Source: Clostridia bacterium (GTDB lineage: Bacteria; Bacillota; Clostridia; Oscillospirales; CAG-272). From it: 23,341 nt of DNA. The position numbers and the translations under genes were made by a program. Every line of letters begins with the position of its first letter. Positions within the stretch are counted from its first letter, which is position 1. The DNA is taken from positions 1-23,341 of the forward strand of contig JAFTIV010000090.1 in assembly GCA_017456685.1 (NCBI GenBank), written 5' to 3'. The notes beneath the pieces are model-generated. The model was not told the origin of the DNA, searched no databases, and was given only the letters and a program-made list of their open reading frames with translations. Shown here piece by piece: positions 15,976-22,626 of the stretch.

Positions 15976-17250
15976 ATGAAATATGTAGAATTTCCATATG
16001 GCAAGGGAAAAATAGGACACACCTTTGGCGATGAACTAATAGGGGTTCTTGATTCCTCAATAAATCAATACACCCCCGAGTACACAGAGCAGGAGCTTGT
16101 AAATAAGGCAATCGCCTCGCCCGTTGGCACAAAACCACTTTGTGAGCTTGCTAAGGGCAAGAAAAACATTGTAATAATTGCGAGCGACCATACGCGCCCC
16201 GTGCCAAGTAAGCTTATAATTCCGCCAATGCTTGAGCAAATAAGAAGCGCAAGCCCTGATGCAAAAATCACTATTTTAATAGCCACAGGGTGCCATAGAG
16301 GCACAACAAGGGATGAGCTTATCTCAAAGCTCGGCAAGGAGATAGTCGAAACCGAAGCTATTTATATTCACGACTGTGACGATAGAGAAAAGCTTGTTAA
16401 TATAGGCACTCTTCCCTCAGGTGGTGTGTGCGAGGTTAATAAAATTGCACTTGATGCAGACCTTCTTTTGGCGGAGGGCTTTATAGAGCCTCATTTCTTT
16501 GCGGGATTTTCTGGCGGAAGAAAGAGCGTTTTGCCAGGGGTGTGTGGAAGAAGCACCGTTTTGGCTAACCATTGCTCGGAATTTATAGCAAGCCCATATT
16601 CAAGAACAGGAATTCTTGAAAATAACCCGATGCACAATGATATGCTATGGGCATCCAAAAAGGCAGGGCTTGCCTTTATAGTGAATGTAGTTCTAAATGA
16701 TAAAAAACAGGTGATTTTTGCAACCGCAGGAGACCCTGAGATGGCACATAAGGCAGGCACGGATTTTCTTTCCTCTCTTTGTGGCGCTAAGGCTAACTTG
16801 GCAGATATAGCAATCACTACCAATGGTGGATACCCACTTGACCAAAATATGTATCAAGCCGTAAAGGGTATGACCGCGGGCGAGGCAACCGTTAAAAGGG
16901 GTGGTGTGATAATTATGCTTGCCGAGTCAGGAGATGGCATCGGTGGAGACCATTTTTATCATCAGCTCGCAGATGAGCCAGATATAAATAAAACAATGCA
17001 AATTTTCTTAAATCGTGCGCGAAATCAAACCGTACCAGACCAATGGCAGACACAGGTGCTTATTCGTGTCCTTCAGCACGCAAGCATGGTATATGTATCA
17101 AAACTGCCAGATGATGTAGTAAGAAAAATGCACATGCACCCTGCCCACTCAATAGACGAGGCAATAGAGGTCGCAAAAAAGCTACTTGGCAAGGAAAGCC
17201 CCTCAATCGTCGCAATCCCCGACGGAGTGTCTGTAATCGTAGAAAAATAA
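15976..17250 (+). CDS. larA: LarA-family nickel-pincer 2-hydroxyacid racemase/epimerase
   Basis: A 424-residue cytoplasmic enzyme of the lactate racemase family, which uses a nickel-pincer cofactor bound through a lysine. The active-site set is complete and one position off the Lactobacillus plantarum enzyme: Asp71 and Arg74 in D-H-T-R-P-V-P, His107 in A-T-G-C-H-R-G, His173 in E-P-H-F-F-A-G-F-S-G, Lys183 (cofactor attachment) in G-G-R-K-S, and His199. Family members also act on malate, phenyllactate, hydroxyglutarate and gluconate, so lactate is not assured. The larB, larC and larE cofactor genes are not in the window. The ATG is one base after the ECF gene's stop, and a mutarotase follows, which leans towards a sugar-related acid. 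The symbol reflects the family. Confidence 0.85.
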   Translation: MKYVEFPYGKGKIGHTFGDELIGVLDSSINQYTPEYTEQELVNKAIASPVGTKPLCELAKGKKNIVIIASDHTRPVPSKLIIPPMLEQIRSASPDAKITILIATGCHRGTTRDELISKLGKEIVETEAIYIHDCDDREKLVNIGTLPSGGVCEVNKIALDADLLLAEGFIEPHFFAGFSGGRKSVLPGVCGRSTVLANHCSEFIASPYSRTGILENNPMHNDMLWASKKAGLAFIVNVVLNDKKQVIFATAGDPEMAHKAGTDFLSSLCGAKANLADIAITTNGGYPLDQNMYQAVKGMTAGEATVKRGGVIIMLAESGDGIGGDHFYHQLADEPDINKTMQIFLNRARNQTVPDQWQTQVLIRVLQHASMVYVSKLPDDVVRKMHMHPAHSIDEAIEVAKKLLGKESPSIVAIPDGVSVIVEK

Positions 17251-18374: not shown

Positions 18375-19487
18375 TTATTTAACGCAGGTGAATTCGACCT
18401 TTATGTTTTTAAAGTGTACTAGATTTTGAATGTTGTCTGTTGAAAATTTAAGAGTGAGTTTTTCGTTCTTAACTGTTGAAGGTGACAAAGTGGTTTCTAT
18501 TGTTCTAGATTTTGAAGATTTTGTGGTGGAAAGGTCGCTATCTCCATAACCAGTTCCGTTAGATTTTAATATGTATGCATCGTATTTCGGTGCGCCCGCA
18601 TATCCAACATCAAGTGGCACATCATAATCCTTTTCATAATAAACATCATAGGTTACCTTTATTTGAATACGATAGCCCTCTTTTTCTAATTTGTCATAGT
18701 CAAAACCAGTAGGCATTATGTTATATGAAACATACGAGTCATCGCCAGCCCAATCCTTGATTTTCGCATTTTGGCAAGATGCAATATAATATATTTTCAA
18801 CCAACTAGCATAAAGATTAATATTGGATTTTATTTCAAGAGGAAACTTTGCTGATTCTGTTAATTGTTTGTCAAGATACCAACCAGAAAAATTAAAGCCT
18901 GTTTTTTCTGGAGAATCAATTTGATTTTCTTCTATGCATTGTCCTGATTTCATTCTTGATTTAAGCAGTGTATAATCATCATCTATAAATGTAACAGAGA
19001 GATACTTGATAACAATAGGATTTGAATCTGCGCTTTTCTCAGGCTTTTGAGTTGATTTTCCGGACAAGGAAATTTTCATTTGGTAAGCATCGTTGTAAAC
19101 AATCTCGCTAACATCTACATTAATCTTTATGTCTTCATTTGCATTTACAACGGCTTTTTCTGTGACGCTGTCTTGGAAAAGAAGCTCGTTTGTTAAAGAA
19201 TAAAATTTAACATCTGCGGTGTACTCAGTTAATGAATATTTGCATTGCGTATTAAAATCAAAGGAATAAGATTTTGATATAGCACCAGATTGTAAATTGT
19301 GAGTTGTATAAACCTTAAAGTCATAATCCTTAACATCAAAACTGTTTGTTGCAATATCATAAGTGTCGTTGTCTTTACTACTTCCGTTATTATCGTTATT
19401 GCCCTTGTCATTACCCTTGATAGAACACGACACCAAAGACAAAACTGTCAAAAGGACAAGGAAAAAAGCTAAAATTCTTGTTTTCAT
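18375..19487 (-). CDS. Lipoprotein with an InlB B-repeat
   Basis: A 370-residue predicted surface lipoprotein. Residues 1-20 form a signal peptide with lipobox L-V-S-C, placing the modified cysteine at 21. A G/N/D/S-rich linker (22-45) follows, then a beta-rich region of unknown fold. An InlB B-repeat (Listeria-Bacteroides repeat) spans about 164-229, recognised by F-I-D-D-D near its start and the ending G-F-N-F-S-G-W-Y-L-D...L-Y-A-S-W. The C-terminal 140 residues are not recognised. The ATG at 19487 is chosen because GGAGAG precedes it and the signal peptide starts there; the open frame extends 125 codons further but covers the promoter. It is a single gene, probably binding something at the cell surface, with partner unknown. 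Confidence 0.82.
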   Translation of the reverse strand: MKTRILAFFLVLLTVLSLVSCSIKGNDKGNNDNNGSSKDNDTYDIATNSFDVKDYDFKVYTTHNLQSGAISKSYSFDFNTQCKYSLTEYTADVKFYSLTNELLFQDSVTEKAVVNANEDIKINVDVSEIVYNDAYQMKISLSGKSTQKPEKSADSNPIVIKYLSVTFIDDDYTLLKSRMKSGQCIEENQIDSPEKTGFNFSGWYLDKQLTESAKFPLEIKSNINLYASWLKIYYIASCQNAKIKDWAGDDSYVSYNIMPTGFDYDKLEKEGYRIQIKVTYDVYYEKDYDVPLDVGYAGAPKYDAYILKSNGTGYGDSDLSTTKSSKSRTIETTLSPSTVKNEKLTLKFSTDNIQNLVHFKNIKVEFTCVK

Positions 19488-19526
19488 AAAACTCTCCTTA
19501 TCAAGCGCATTTAAAGTGATAATATT

Positions 19527-19555
19527 AGTATAGCATATTAATAAATTTTTGTCAA
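19527..19555 (-). promoter_or_regulatory. Promoter of the InlB-repeat lipoprotein
   Basis: On the minus strand TTGACA (19555-19550), 17 bp and TATACT (19532-19527) form a near-consensus promoter. It lies inside the long open frame extended upstream of the lipoprotein, which supports the shorter protein. Confidence 0.82.
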
Positions 19556-19603
19556 TATATGTCAAAAAGTCGAAAATATAGAATAAAAATATATTTCCGT
19601 TGC

Positions 19604-19632
19604 AAAAAGGACACCGATTTGGTGTCTTTTTT
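19604..19632. terminator. Terminator-like hairpin, copy 2 of a twin, without an obvious gene to end
   Basis: AAAAAGGACACC (19604-19615) pairs with GGTGTCTTTTTT (19621-19632) with one G-T pair. It repeats the hairpin at 18345-18371. No rightward gene lies between the two, and on the minus strand another terminator (19867-19889) already closes the next gene. Confidence 0.7.
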
Positions 19633-19866
19633 GTTTGGCTAAGCATATTGTTTGTAATTTGAACCTTAATCAATGCGTTAGCATTGTATGGAATCTTAGA
19701 AAGGAACAAGTTGGATGGCTTCTCGCTACGCGAGGCTTTTTCTCGAGCCTTATCCTTGCAAGCAGAGAACGGCTTTCTCAAAAAAGAACGCACCATATTC
19801 ATTTTCGACCAAGCGAAAATGAAAATAGTTCGAATCGCAAACCCACCCCAGCCAACAGACACAAAA
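19633..19866. other. Hairpin-rich intergenic stretch without a convincing gene
   Basis: Short perfect inverted repeats follow one another: CAATGC/GCATTG (19671-19686), CTCGC/GCGAG (19722-19734), AGGCT/AGCCT (19733-19750) and ATTTTCG/CGAAAAT (19801-19820). CAACAGACA (19853-19861) pairs with TGTCTGTTG (19889-19897) around the terminator that follows. Around 19827-19855 there is a TTCGAAT loop followed by ...CCCCAGCCA, reminiscent of a tRNA 3' end, but no stem partners were found. Small open frames on both strands cross the stretch but lack ribosome sites. It may be a dispersed noncoding repeat. Confidence 0.5.
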
Positions 19867-19955: not shown

Positions 19956-20291
19956 TTATATACCGCAGATGGTAAAGAATCTATGCTCGGCAAAGCATTT
20001 TTCTACCCACGGACTCAATTCTTCTATAACTTCCTTCCATAGCTCATTTTTATTCGATTTTTCGACAAGGTTTTTCCATTGTTCCTTGCTTACTTCGGTC
20101 GGAGCATAATAGCAAAAGTTCTCGATTGAATTAGAGAACAATTCATAAAGCATTAGTGAATCAAAAGTGTCAGCATGAAGACAAAGGGAATCTCTTAGCC
20201 AAAATTTATTTTTAAAATTCCCTTTTTGAAATTCAAAATAACAAGTGCCTCCCGTTGCTTTTCGTTGAGCTTCATCAAGAAAGTATTTCAT
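19956..20291 (-). CDS. Hypothetical 111-residue protein
   Basis: I do not recognise this family. The product is a soluble, mildly acidic protein with no signal peptide or membrane segment. Aromatic residues are frequent, with F-Y, F-W and Y-Y pairs throughout. It has an S-K-E-Q-W-x-x-L segment near residue 68 and four or more cysteines. AAGGATG precedes the ATG by eight bases, a plausible promoter lies upstream and a terminator lies downstream, so it is a complete one-gene unit and not a chance frame. Size, composition and solitary setting recall small immunity-type proteins, but this is an impression without motif support. Confidence 0.65.
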   Translation of the reverse strand: MKYFLDEAQRKATGGTCYFEFQKGNFKNKFWLRDSLCLHADTFDSLMLYELFSNSIENFCYYAPTEVSKEQWKNLVEKSNKNELWKEVIEELSPWVEKCFAEHRFFTICGI

Positions 20292-20331: not shown

Positions 20332-20360
20332 ATTGTACCACACTTCCGACAATAAACCAA
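20332..20360 (-). promoter_or_regulatory. Probable promoter of the 111-residue hypothetical gene
   Basis: On the minus strand TTGGTT (20360-20355), 17 bp and TACAAT (20337-20332), about 40 bases before the ATG. The -35 box is only moderate. Confidence 0.55.
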
Positions 20361-20380
20361 GACGTAGCCTTGTATCTTTA

Positions 20381-20545
20381 ATGAAATCGTGCGTTGCACG
20401 ATGAAATCCGAGCAAGCTCGGATGAAATCTTCGGCGTGCCGCCTCAGATGAAATTAAATCCGCCTCCCTTAACCTTGCGAAGCAAGATTTCATCGCGTAG
20501 CGATTTCATCCACGATAGTGGATTTCTTCCGCCATCGGCGGATTT
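20381..20545. repeat. Nested array of seven mini-hairpins separated by GATGAAATC / GATTTCATC units
   Basis: ATGAAATC occurs at 20381, 20401 and 20422, with a split fourth copy at 20448. The inverse follows: GATTTCATC at 20486 and 20502, and shorter GATTTC/GATTT at 20521 and 20541. Between consecutive units is a small palindrome: CGTGC-GTT-GCACG, CCGAGC-AA-GCTCGG, GGCG-TGC-CGCC, CTTGC-GAA-GCAAG, ATCGC-GTA-GCGAT, ATCCAC-GATA-GTGGAT and CCGCC-ATC-GGCGG. Direct units in the left half can pair with inverse units in the right half, leaving the mini-hairpins as side branches. The 303-base gap between the hypothetical gene and tRNA-Gln is almost entirely this array plus a terminator. Confidence 0.88.
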
Positions 20546-20550
20546 AGTTG

Positions 20551-20593
20551 AAAAAAGCACACATTGTCTTGGTAGACAAATGTGTGCTTTTTT
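20551..20593. terminator. Very strong terminator next to tRNA-Gln
   Basis: AAAAAAGCACACATTGTCT (20551-20569) pairs with AGACAAATGTGTGCTTTTTT (20574-20593), with one bulged base. On the minus strand it begins directly after the tRNA-Gln CCA end and is followed by a T-run, so it ends the tRNA transcript. It can also act rightward. Confidence 0.9.
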
Positions 20594-20594
20594 C

Positions 20595-20670
20595 TGGCTG
20601 GGATGGATGGGTTCGAACCATCGAAATGCCAGAGTCAAAGTCTGGTGCCTTACCGCTTGGCTACATCCCA
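20595..20670 (-). tRNA. tRNA-Gln (anticodon UUG)
   Basis: The minus strand folds as a 76-nt cloverleaf. The acceptor stem is TGGGATG/CATCCCA, the D-arm contains AGCGGTAAGGC, the anticodon stem is CAGA/TCTG with loop CTTTGAC, and the T-arm is GATGG-TTCGAAC-CCATC. Discriminator G and an encoded CCA follow. The loop places TTG as anticodon, reading CAA/CAG glutamine codons. It is a single tRNA gene with its own promoter and terminator. Confidence 0.96.
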
Positions 20671-20772: not shown

Positions 20773-20801
20773 TTGACATTTTTTTCTCAATGTTATATAC
20801 T
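20773..20801 (+). promoter_or_regulatory. Promoter of the GH127 gene
   Basis: TTGACA (20773-20778), 17 bp and TATACT (20796-20801). It is followed about 28 bases later by the ATG. Confidence 0.85.
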
Positions 20802-20810
20802 TAGTATATA
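20794..20810. promoter_or_regulatory. Dyad operator candidate over the GH127 -10 box
   Basis: TATATAC (20794-20800) and GTATATA (20804-20810) are perfect inverted repeats around TTA, covering the -10 element and the start-site region. A repressor bound here would block transcription. The sequence differs from the dyad at 15319-15337, so a different regulator is implied. AT-rich chance symmetry is possible. Confidence 0.45.
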
Positions 20811-20829
20811 CACCTTTTTGGAGGTAATT

Positions 20830-22626
20830 ATGAAAGCAGTTGATTTTACAAGCATAAAAATAAACGGAGGCTTTTGGAAAGAGAAGCAGGACCTTGTTCG
20901 CGAGGTTACAATAAATGCCGTTTATGATAGATTTAAGGAAAGCGGAAGAATAGATGCCTTCAATTTTGATAGCGGAGTGAAGGCGCACTTTTTCTGGGAT
21001 TCGGATGTTGCAAAATGGATTGAGAGCGTGGCATATCTTTCAACGGAGAAAAGAGAGCCAGCACTTGAGGCAATCGTTGACGAAATTGTTGATAATATAG
21101 AAAAATATCGCGATGAGTGTGGATATTTCAATATATATCATATGACAATTGAACCCGAAAATCGCCTCAAAATTCGCGACCATCACGAGCTTTATTGCTT
21201 AGGTCACCTAATAGAGGCTGGTGTTGCTTACTATAAGGCAACGGGCAAGGACAAGCTTCTTAAGCTAATGTGTGATTATACCGATTATGTAGAAAAGCGC
21301 TTTAAAATCGACAAGAATACCCCATTTACAACCCCAGGGCACGAGGAAATCGAGCTTGCGCTCGTTAAGCTCTACGATGTAACAGGCGAGAAAAGATATC
21401 TTGAGCTCTCGCGCTTCTTTGTTGACGAAAGAGGAACGAAAAGCGAGGAGCTGTGCGACTGGATGGCTCGCTCCTACAACCAATCCCATGCACCTGTAAG
21501 AGAGCAGGATACCGCAGAGGGACACGCTGTGCGCGCTGTGTATCTTTACTGTGCTATGGCAGACCTTGCGCTAAAATATAACGATGAGGCGCTTAAAAAT
21601 GCCTGCCGAAAAATTTTTGACAATATAATAAACAAGCGTATGTATATAACAGGAGGCATCGGCTCGAGTGCCTTTGGCGAGGCATTCACGGTGGATTACG
21701 ACCTTCCAAACCTAACTGCATACACCGAGAGCTGTGCAGCAATAGGACTTGCGCTTTTCGCACACAGGATGCTACTTTTGGAAAATGATGCTAAATATGC
21801 CGACACCATAGAAAGAGTAATTTATAACGGCTTTTTGTCCTCATTTTCGCTTGATGGCGATAAGTTCTTTTACTGTAACCCCTTGGAGATTTTGCCATAT
21901 ATGCTCACAAAGGACACAAGCCAAAACGAAAAGAACTCTCTTCACTTGCCCGTTACAAGACGACAAAAGGAATTTGAGTGCTCCTGCTGTCCGCCAAATA
22001 TCACTCGCTTTGTACCAACGATTGCTAATTTTATGTACACCTGTGACGATGATACAATATATGTTCATCAGTATATGCAAAGCGAGGCGCAAATTGCCCT
22101 TGGCGATAAGAAAATAAAAATCGAGCAAAAAACACTTTACCCAACAAATGGAAAAATCGAAATCAAGGTGGATACCCCCTGCAAGGTGGCTGTAAGAATT
22201 CCTGACTATTGTAGAGATAAAGGCTCAAGTGGCTATGAAATTTTCGAAATTACAGACCCGTCGTCGCCAATTTGCCTCGATTTTGACCTGACCCCTCGCT
22301 TTGTATGTGCAAACCCAGAGGTTCTTGCAGATGCCGATAAAATCGCCCTTGCACGCGGACCGGTTGTTTACTGTATGGAGGGCATTGATAATGAGGGGCA
22401 CCTTCGCTCAATCGTGCTTGATACAAGCTCGCAAATAACAGAGAGCGAAAACGCGGAGCTTGGCGTAATAGCTCTTACCCTTGACGCGTATCAGCGAAAG
22501 CCAATAGCCAGCCTATATTCAACCAAAATAAACGACACATATAAGACCAAAGCAACCCTAATCCCGTTCTATGCCTTTGCAAACAGAGAAGAGTGCGAGA
22601 TGCAGGTGTGGCATAACTACCGATAA
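20830..22626 (+). CDS. GH127 family beta-L-arabinofuranosidase-like enzyme
   Basis: A 598-residue cytoplasmic (alpha/alpha)6-barrel glycosidase. The zinc-thiolate active site of GH127 is visible. Glu300 and Cys302 in Y-T-E-S-C, plus Cys386 and Cys387 in E-C-S-C-C-P-P-N, correspond to Glu338, Cys340, Cys417 (nucleophile) and Cys418 of HypBA1 from Bifidobacterium longum. R-D-H-H-E-L-Y (about 116-122) and P-G-H-E-E-I-E-L-A-L (169-178) are further family blocks. The start is ATG 20830, with GGAGG seven bases before it; an in-frame TTG at 20773 lies in the -35 box. Characterised members release L-arabinofuranose from plant glycans, though the family has other activities. No signal peptide, so its substrate must be imported. 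Confidence 0.9.
   Translation: MKAVDFTSIKINGGFWKEKQDLVREVTINAVYDRFKESGRIDAFNFDSGVKAHFFWDSDVAKWIESVAYLSTEKREPALEAIVDEIVDNIEKYRDECGYFNIYHMTIEPENRLKIRDHHELYCLGHLIEAGVAYYKATGKDKLLKLMCDYTDYVEKRFKIDKNTPFTTPGHEEIELALVKLYDVTGEKRYLELSRFFVDERGTKSEELCDWMARSYNQSHAPVREQDTAEGHAVRAVYLYCAMADLALKYNDEALKNACRKIFDNIINKRMYITGGIGSSAFGEAFTVDYDLPNLTAYTESCAAIGLALFAHRMLLLENDAKYADTIERVIYNGFLSSFSLDGDKFFYCNPLEILPYMLTKDTSQNEKNSLHLPVTRRQKEFECSCCPPNITRFVPTIANFMYTCDDDTIYVHQYMQSEAQIALGDKKIKIEQKTLYPTNGKIEIKVDTPCKVAVRIPDYCRDKGSSGYEIFEITDPSSPICLDFDLTPRFVCANPEVLADADKIALARGPVVYCMEGIDNEGHLRSIVLDTSSQITESENAELGVIALTLDAYQRKPIASLYSTKINDTYKTKATLIPFYAFANREECEMQVWHNYR

Follow-up and report, generated by a model that had tools for sequence, protein, structure and literature searches.

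REP and REPIN sequences are dispersed, paired inverted hairpin units associated with a Y1 transposase (RAYT); CRISPR arrays consist of direct repeats and unique spacers with cas genes; and MITEs have terminal inverted repeats and a target-site duplication. The elements we describe here are likewise dispersed as paired inverted hairpin units, but they differ from REP and REPIN in having no link to Y1 and in that every unit has three or four different hairpins, the stems varying and the linker staying constant.

Two described systems come closer. Gut-1 (RF01706) entered Rfam in about 2010 and still has no function assigned; in the accessible part of the 2010 report it is marked "human gut only" and considered a likely noncoding RNA (PMC2864571). 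Like each half of the array in our window, Gut-1 has three hairpins joined by UGAAAU-type linkers. It models a single arm, whereas the window element has two inverted arms plus a long-range stem (P1), and the element family adds other ladder words and a linkage to the IVP gene. The second system is the intervening sequence (IVS) of 23S rRNA. In the accessible part of PMC4990558, the IVS with its S23/IVP gene is described as an insertion into hairpins and is called a selfish element, the solved S23 protein is a homopentamer, and no function is given for the protein. The protein family (PF05635, TIGR02436) is common to IVS and to the fuller members of our element family, and PF05635 resembles Avd of diversity-generating retroelements in the portion of PMC10053308 available to us. 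While IVS sit in 23S rRNA, the elements here occur at tRNA terminators, terminator loops and gene 3' ends, and hairpin ladders and gene-less copies are features of these elements, unlike IVS. The window copy itself lies not in 23S rRNA but behind a tRNA-Gln, and has no IVP gene.

Among the literature matches listed, we found no description of these arrays together with IVP, and the family is already known in part only, catalogued as the unexplained RNA Gut-1. We consider it probable (roughly 0.6) that the window array belongs, as a non-autonomous copy, to a family of mobile elements in gut Clostridia, with Gut-1 as one arm of the element, and that the fuller members combine a two-armed ladder with an IVP gene at gene 3' ends and behind tRNA terminators.

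The hairpin ladder and its surroundings

The window is the whole stretch of DNA that we analysed, 23,341 nucleotides of a Clostridia bacterium. The sequence-only reading had proposed that it holds an array of eight spaced copies of one 9-mer, four direct and then four inverted, and the word matches bear this out, with an eighth copy that is much diverged. On the forward strand, the L arm starts with AATGAAATC (20380..20388, outer, one mismatch), continues with two exact copies of the ladder word GATGAAATC (20400..20408 and 20421..20429), and ends with GATGAAATT (20447..20455, inner, one mismatch). On the R arm, the inverted words lie on the minus strand at 20486..20494 (inner), 20502..20510 and 20521..20529 (one mismatch), and the eighth word, also inverted, has decayed to GATTTAGTT (20541-20549). 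In the whole window we counted 18 matches to GATGAAATC with at most one mismatch, seven of them inside the array, against 8.4 expected, and none of 100 shuffles of the window reached 18.

The seven differing palindromes between the conserved words were also found again, partly by eye. Hairpins 1 (20389..20399) and 2 (20409..20420) in the L arm and hairpins 4 (20474..20486), 5 (20495..20501) and 6 (20511..20520) further on come from reading by eye and from the fold. Hairpin 3 (20430..20446), which has tandem G.A mismatches on the minus strand, was placed by eye and by alignment, and hairpin 7 (20529..20541) by eye and by a three-way covariation; one of its arms has an alternative pairing with the centre. 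That alternative is P1, whose central strand AAATCCGCC (20456..20464, plus) and outer strand GGCGGATTT (20537..20545, plus) rest on the fold and on covariation. As had been claimed, the array is unlike CRISPR in that its intervals are palindromes and half of its words are inverted. The earlier boundaries (20381..20545) leave out the terminator and promoter sides. We folded positions 20370-20600, with the tRNA terminator included, and the region beat all 200 of 200 shuffles on both strands (z of -7.8 and -7.5). The minimum-energy folds of that region, on either strand, did not use the proposed tree in which left words pair with right words.

The array lies between a tRNA and a small gene, as first described. 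On one side, a bidirectional terminator-like hairpin with 16-bp perfect arms (20550..20594) separates it from a tRNA-Gln (TTG) on the minus strand (20595..20670), followed by a GH127 beta-L-arabinofuranosidase gene (window 20773-22626), in which relatives have about 65-71% DNA identity. On the other side, a promoter-like TTGGTT-N17-TACAAT (20332..20360, minus, by eye) points from the L arm to a gene for 111 amino acids (19956..20291, minus), a conserved family of unknown function in the position that IVP takes in other copies; beyond it are genes for a protein with a Listeria-Bacteroides repeat (window 18375-19862) and a LarA-type lactate racemase (window 15976-17250). We found 85 proteins of the 111-aa family, the window's own included. 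The open reading frame had no Pfam or NCBIfam match and we rejected it as an IVP on that ground; we also rejected it as regular cargo, as it was found in four of 116 genomes, again including its own. Two homologues had readable upstream DNA (L508, L509), and by eye neither had an array.

Reading by eye, we also saw that the stretch around 20332-20380 combines a small palindrome, AAGGCTACGCCTT, with the promoter-like site. A similar AAGGCTACGCCTT-type stretch stands behind arrays of differing ladders at three other loci (L020, L028, L398), with different genes behind it. From the window alone, the connection with IVP genes described below is not visible.

Gut-1 copies and the anatomy of the family

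In a permissive Rfam search, the two halves of the window array matched Gut-1 in opposite orientations with E of about 1e-5: 20350..20433 on the plus strand (35.5 bits) and 20482..20550 on the minus strand (36.5 bits). Both halves align to model positions 1-77 and have three hairpins with the conserved linkers. Neither reaches the Gut-1 gathering cut-off of 50 bits, at which only the tRNA was found in the window, and the ten remaining permissive matches to other Rfam families were weak or overlapped the terminator.

Searching the host genome and its relatives for copies, as had been suggested, was productive. In the own genome, an assembly of 1.43 Mb in 208 contigs that is 64% complete, 51 places match Gut-1 with E up to 0.001, of which 22 exceed the cut-off, and ten copies have the same 69-nt core, letter for letter, in surroundings that differ. 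Gut-1 matches were present in 44 of 57 genomes (own and relatives), above the cut-off in 38, compared with one of 14 control genomes and none of 14 above the cut-off. Several own-genome copies (for example L307, L308 and L323) have another interspersed repeat, ACCGCCCCCTTTAGAGT..., at the L-arm position. At L305, L315, L328 and L329 the three L-arm hairpins are absent between ladder words, by eye, as if deleted between direct repeats.

We collected 95 composite elements in fetched loci, of which 76 could be oriented by P1 and 19 could not. In the alignment, starting at the outer end of the R arm, the order is AAATCC with a variable part, a run of hairpins joined by GATGAAATC, the P1 partner, which ends in GGATTT, and a second run of hairpins joined by the inverted word. 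The sequence-only reading would have been undone by a lack of further copies and of covariation, and the covariation proved strong. Across 39 elements, 89.7% of hairpin cells pair, compared with 34-38% when the partners are slid, and double-sided changes occur in 29 of 43 hairpin pairs (236 double-change cells); none of 500 shuffles reached any of five measures. For P1, 98% of cells are paired with 27 double changes; no shuffle of 500 matched it in paired cells, in double changes or in covariation score, and 22 and 445 reached its values on two coarser counts. At two variable positions of P1 the covariation is three-way, involving both hairpin 7 and the centre, which indicates that two mutually exclusive pairings are both kept.

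When we scanned 234 Clostridia loci for hairpins flanked by copies of any repeated word, 204 arrays emerged, a number in which overlapping fetches and some low-complexity words are counted too; shuffled sequence gave none. Sixteen loci with non-Clostridia titles were kept out of the array scans, loop counts, end comparisons and oriented-element set. Viral-contig loci among the matches listed for a two-word pattern held seven arrays in 0.99 Mb. In sister arrays the ladder word has changed in concert (for example GTGATAT, GTGAAGT, GCTAAAT and GTTATGA), and further words are GTGAAAT, TGATGATAT, TTCGATATA, AGCTAAATT, GTTACACT and GTGAAGTT. In each ladder type that we inspected, forward and inverted words are complementary, and the own genome has GTGATAT arrays with the same plan. 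One left end was seen with four words (GATGAAATC, GTGATAT, GTTATGA and AGTGAAGTT), and both ends with GATGAAATC and with GTGATAT.

GNA, GNNA and tandem G.A motifs are stable in DNA. On the strand that reads ATTTCA, the triloops of 152 distinct hairpins include 56 GNA and 4 TNC, while other hairpins in the same loci have 126 GNA and 112 TNC among 1556. Of 80 tetraloops on that strand, 28 are GNNA (15 GNRA, 13 GNYA) and none are TNNC. The ratio of GT to AC wobbles is 4:10 in the R arm and 17:7 in the L arm (p=0.018), so that it follows the ladder and is opposite in each arm; for the loop and wobble counts alike, related sequences are not independent. These loop and wobble preferences would be consistent with each arm being selected as a single strand, and with DNA at least as well as RNA.

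The probable IVP partner gene and the sites of the arrays

Behind several arrays of the tRNA class lies a small gene that belongs to the four-helix-bundle family PF05635/TIGR02436 (IVP/S23); the array is upstream of the gene, with the L arm nearest to it. A profile of 16 IVP proteins matches the solved structures 2rld and 2gsc. From 133 hits we set aside the ten best and took the next 60 by score, and 40 of these 60 genes had an inverted ladder upstream, compared with three of 80 control ORFs (p=1.5e-16); two of those three controls lie in IVP loci, and the test was positive in two of 300 shuffles. The other 20 IVP genes had no inverted ladder in the test, and by eye some of them show arrays and others show none. 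Over the 57 genomes, 41 had both Gut-1 and IVP, three had Gut-1 alone, three had IVP alone and ten had neither (p=1.6e-6); the same table for 23 order-level genomes is 11/1/3/8 (p=0.003).

Ladder type also tracks IVP clade. On a tree of 67 IVP proteins, which has few columns and many weak forks and for which 62 of the 67 rows were labelled by eye, the ladder label needs 12 changes, while 300 shuffles need at least 36 and the genome label needs 51. Leaving out the no-hairpin label gives 11 changes against at least 29. Seven of the 67 rows had been picked for carrying a GATGAAATC-type ladder, and the agreement between ladder and clade may have come about through linkage alone. We believe that the four-helix IVP protein of the fuller relatives is probably the missing partner of the ladder. 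No GATGAAATC-type IVP was found in the 64% complete own genome, whose three IVP genes go with GTGAAGT, GTGATAT and CATCAT-like ladders.

We saw three classes of insertion site. For the tRNA class, 73 of the 76 oriented elements had sufficient upstream DNA, and 27 of the 73 had a same-strand tRNA or tmRNA ending at most 110 nt from the first word, compared with three of 219 control positions. The window element belongs to this class, in which the array stands, by eye, between a terminator and a promoter-like site. In the second class the element sits in a terminator loop. There were 25 left ends, 11 with less than 420 nt on the far side and 14 with at least 420 nt; among the 14, an exact far arm of at least 10 nt was found in eight and one of 8 nt in two, and four had none. 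A general search found terminator-like outer stems around 16 of 157 full-flank arrays, several of which are overlapping fetches of one locus, and at eight of 489 control positions, so that only a subset can be said to lie in terminator loops. The third class is the 3' ends of genes: rumA and dnaN (named by NCBIfam) and guaA, asnS, gyrB and ftsK-like genes (named by eye).

The site behind tRNA-Gln could be compared in twelve genomes, six filled and six empty. The window genome has the GATGAAATC ladder there; the others have GCTAAAT with IVP (G021), GCTAAAT with a broken IVP (G003), ATGATAT with a partial IVP (G020), GTGATAT (G004) and ATGATG (G027). In another comparison, one relative has a 183-nt array built on another word that a second relative lacks, and a further pair differs by a 23-nt indel that is one hairpin plus a word.

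Filled gene ends carry an inverted copy of the target. An array was present at 10 of 29 rumA-type gene ends; a palindrome spans the gene end in all ten, exact and 8-17 bp long in eight and imperfect in two (partly by eye). Sixteen ends had neither an array nor such a palindrome; three had a 12 bp palindrome with no clear array, and these are excluded from the association test. In G014, for example, the rumA end reads GTTGAAACTGTTGTTTG, five bases, the reverse complement of GTTGAAACTGTTGTTTG, and then the array. By eye, the native 3' sequence of the unfilled genomes resumes behind the IVP stop codon, and the rumA arrays lie between co-directional genes. At dnaN, an array is present in three of 28 genomes, with palindromes of 18 bp, 16 bp and one with 9 of 10 pairs; the other 25 lack an array, by eye, as well as any palindrome of at least 9 bp. 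The ends of type-B elements look alike and inverted, by eye. We identified no direct target duplication; the filled rumA and dnaN ends have the inverted target copy instead.

Weighing the readings

The copies are dispersed, are present or absent at the same site among relatives, are linked to IVP with ladder types that follow its clades, and have an inverted target copy at filled sites, in assemblies that come mostly from uncultured organisms and with ladder labels and gene names (other than rumA and dnaN) that rest in part on reading by eye. From these comparisons we infer that the array family is mobile. The sequence-only reading had offered three possibilities: a mobile repeat, a noncoding RNA, or a structure in DNA recombination or replication. 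The mobile repeat fits best and the RNA idea is covered by the Gut-1 match; the proposal stands in part. That the element is a Gut-1 small RNA gene, a multicopy structured noncoding RNA acting as RNA, has the Rfam listing as an sRNA behind it, along with the judgement of its authors in the accessible part of their report (PMC2864571), the match of both window halves, the covariation in hairpins and P1, and the rumA arrays, which may be transcribed from between co-directional genes. We consider this reading unlikely, as the arms are inverted, the loop and wobble preferences follow the ladder and not one transcript strand, tRNA-class arrays stand by eye between a terminator and a promoter-like site, and copies at the same site differ among relatives. 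The same placement between terminator and promoter-like site, often behind tRNAs (27/73 against 3/219), would suit a host-selected transcription insulator or mRNA-stabilising structure that is not mobile; presence that varies among relatives, and different ladders at the same site, make this a very unlikely account.

The array could also control the IVP gene in cis, as an operator or leader to which IVP binds, and solo arrays would then be relics of lost genes. Its position upstream of IVP with the L arm nearest the gene would suit this, as would ladder types that track IVP clades, but the many solo arrays, the ten recent identical copies, the several ladder types found at one tRNA site in different genomes and the inverted target copies all tell against it, and we regard it as quite unlikely. 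An element of the REP/REPIN kind, moved by a Y1 (RAYT/IS200) transposase on single-stranded hairpins, would account for the paired inverted hairpin units and for stable loops preferred on one strand per arm. Over the 57 genomes, Y1_Tnp and Gut-1 are not associated (21/23/6/7, p=1), several many-copy genomes have no Y1 match, and none was found in the own genome; we rejected Y1/RAYT as the mover, and this explanation is highly improbable.

To return to the mobile family, insertion that leaves an inverted target copy is unusual and calls for a mechanism. In the one that we propose, an IVP ring would bind ladder words in single-stranded DNA or RNA, the target end would fold back on itself, and the array would be copied onto the folded-back end by template switching into the array, aided by the ring. 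Such fold-back copying would leave an inverted target copy. We infer that each IVP recognises its own ladder word and can act in trans on arrays bearing that word; the window copy, having no IVP, would be a passenger. Against the passenger role, none of the three IVP genes in the own genome, which is incomplete, has a GATGAAATC ladder. Linking Gut-1 to IVP gives both a testable role: the protein would be specific for a ladder, and the ladder would be its partner in DNA or RNA. The pairs of ladder and protein, of which there are many, would serve as natural specificity variants.

More tentatively, and at a little under even odds, these elements may form a mobile element class without a recognised transposase of their own, made of IVP and a matching array of words and hairpins. 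Word specificity would have diversified among paralogues in the same genome, and the element would insert at the 3' ends of conserved genes, leave an inverted target copy and fill genomes with gene-less arrays. Gut-1, the intervening sequences of rRNA and the repeats of short words around IVP genes in other lineages would then all fall into one class. PF05635 occurs in 59 of 299 phylum-sampled genomes (50 above the cut-off). We looked at 34 IVP flanks, 30 from this sample and four from named plasmids, and a 6-mer was present at least six times in 16 of them, compared with four of 77 control windows. Most of the flanks that we inspected by reading have short-word repeats without hairpins. In distant phylum members, IVP lies inside LSU rRNA at three of 30 loci and inside RNase P RNA at one of 30 (L459, L465, L470, L468).

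In plasmids of Treponema saccharophilum, Nostoc and Planktothrix (L510, L512, L515), IVP sits amid long runs of short words with no hairpins; cyanobacterial short tandem repeats (STRR) resemble the short-word runs that flank plasmid IVP genes. Two human-gut contigs labelled as bacteriophage (L513, MT835590.1; L514, MT835815.1), which may be mislabelled bacterial DNA, have an IVP behind a hairpin ladder, by eye, and in one of them the ladder and IVP stand behind a tRNA-like sequence, also by eye.
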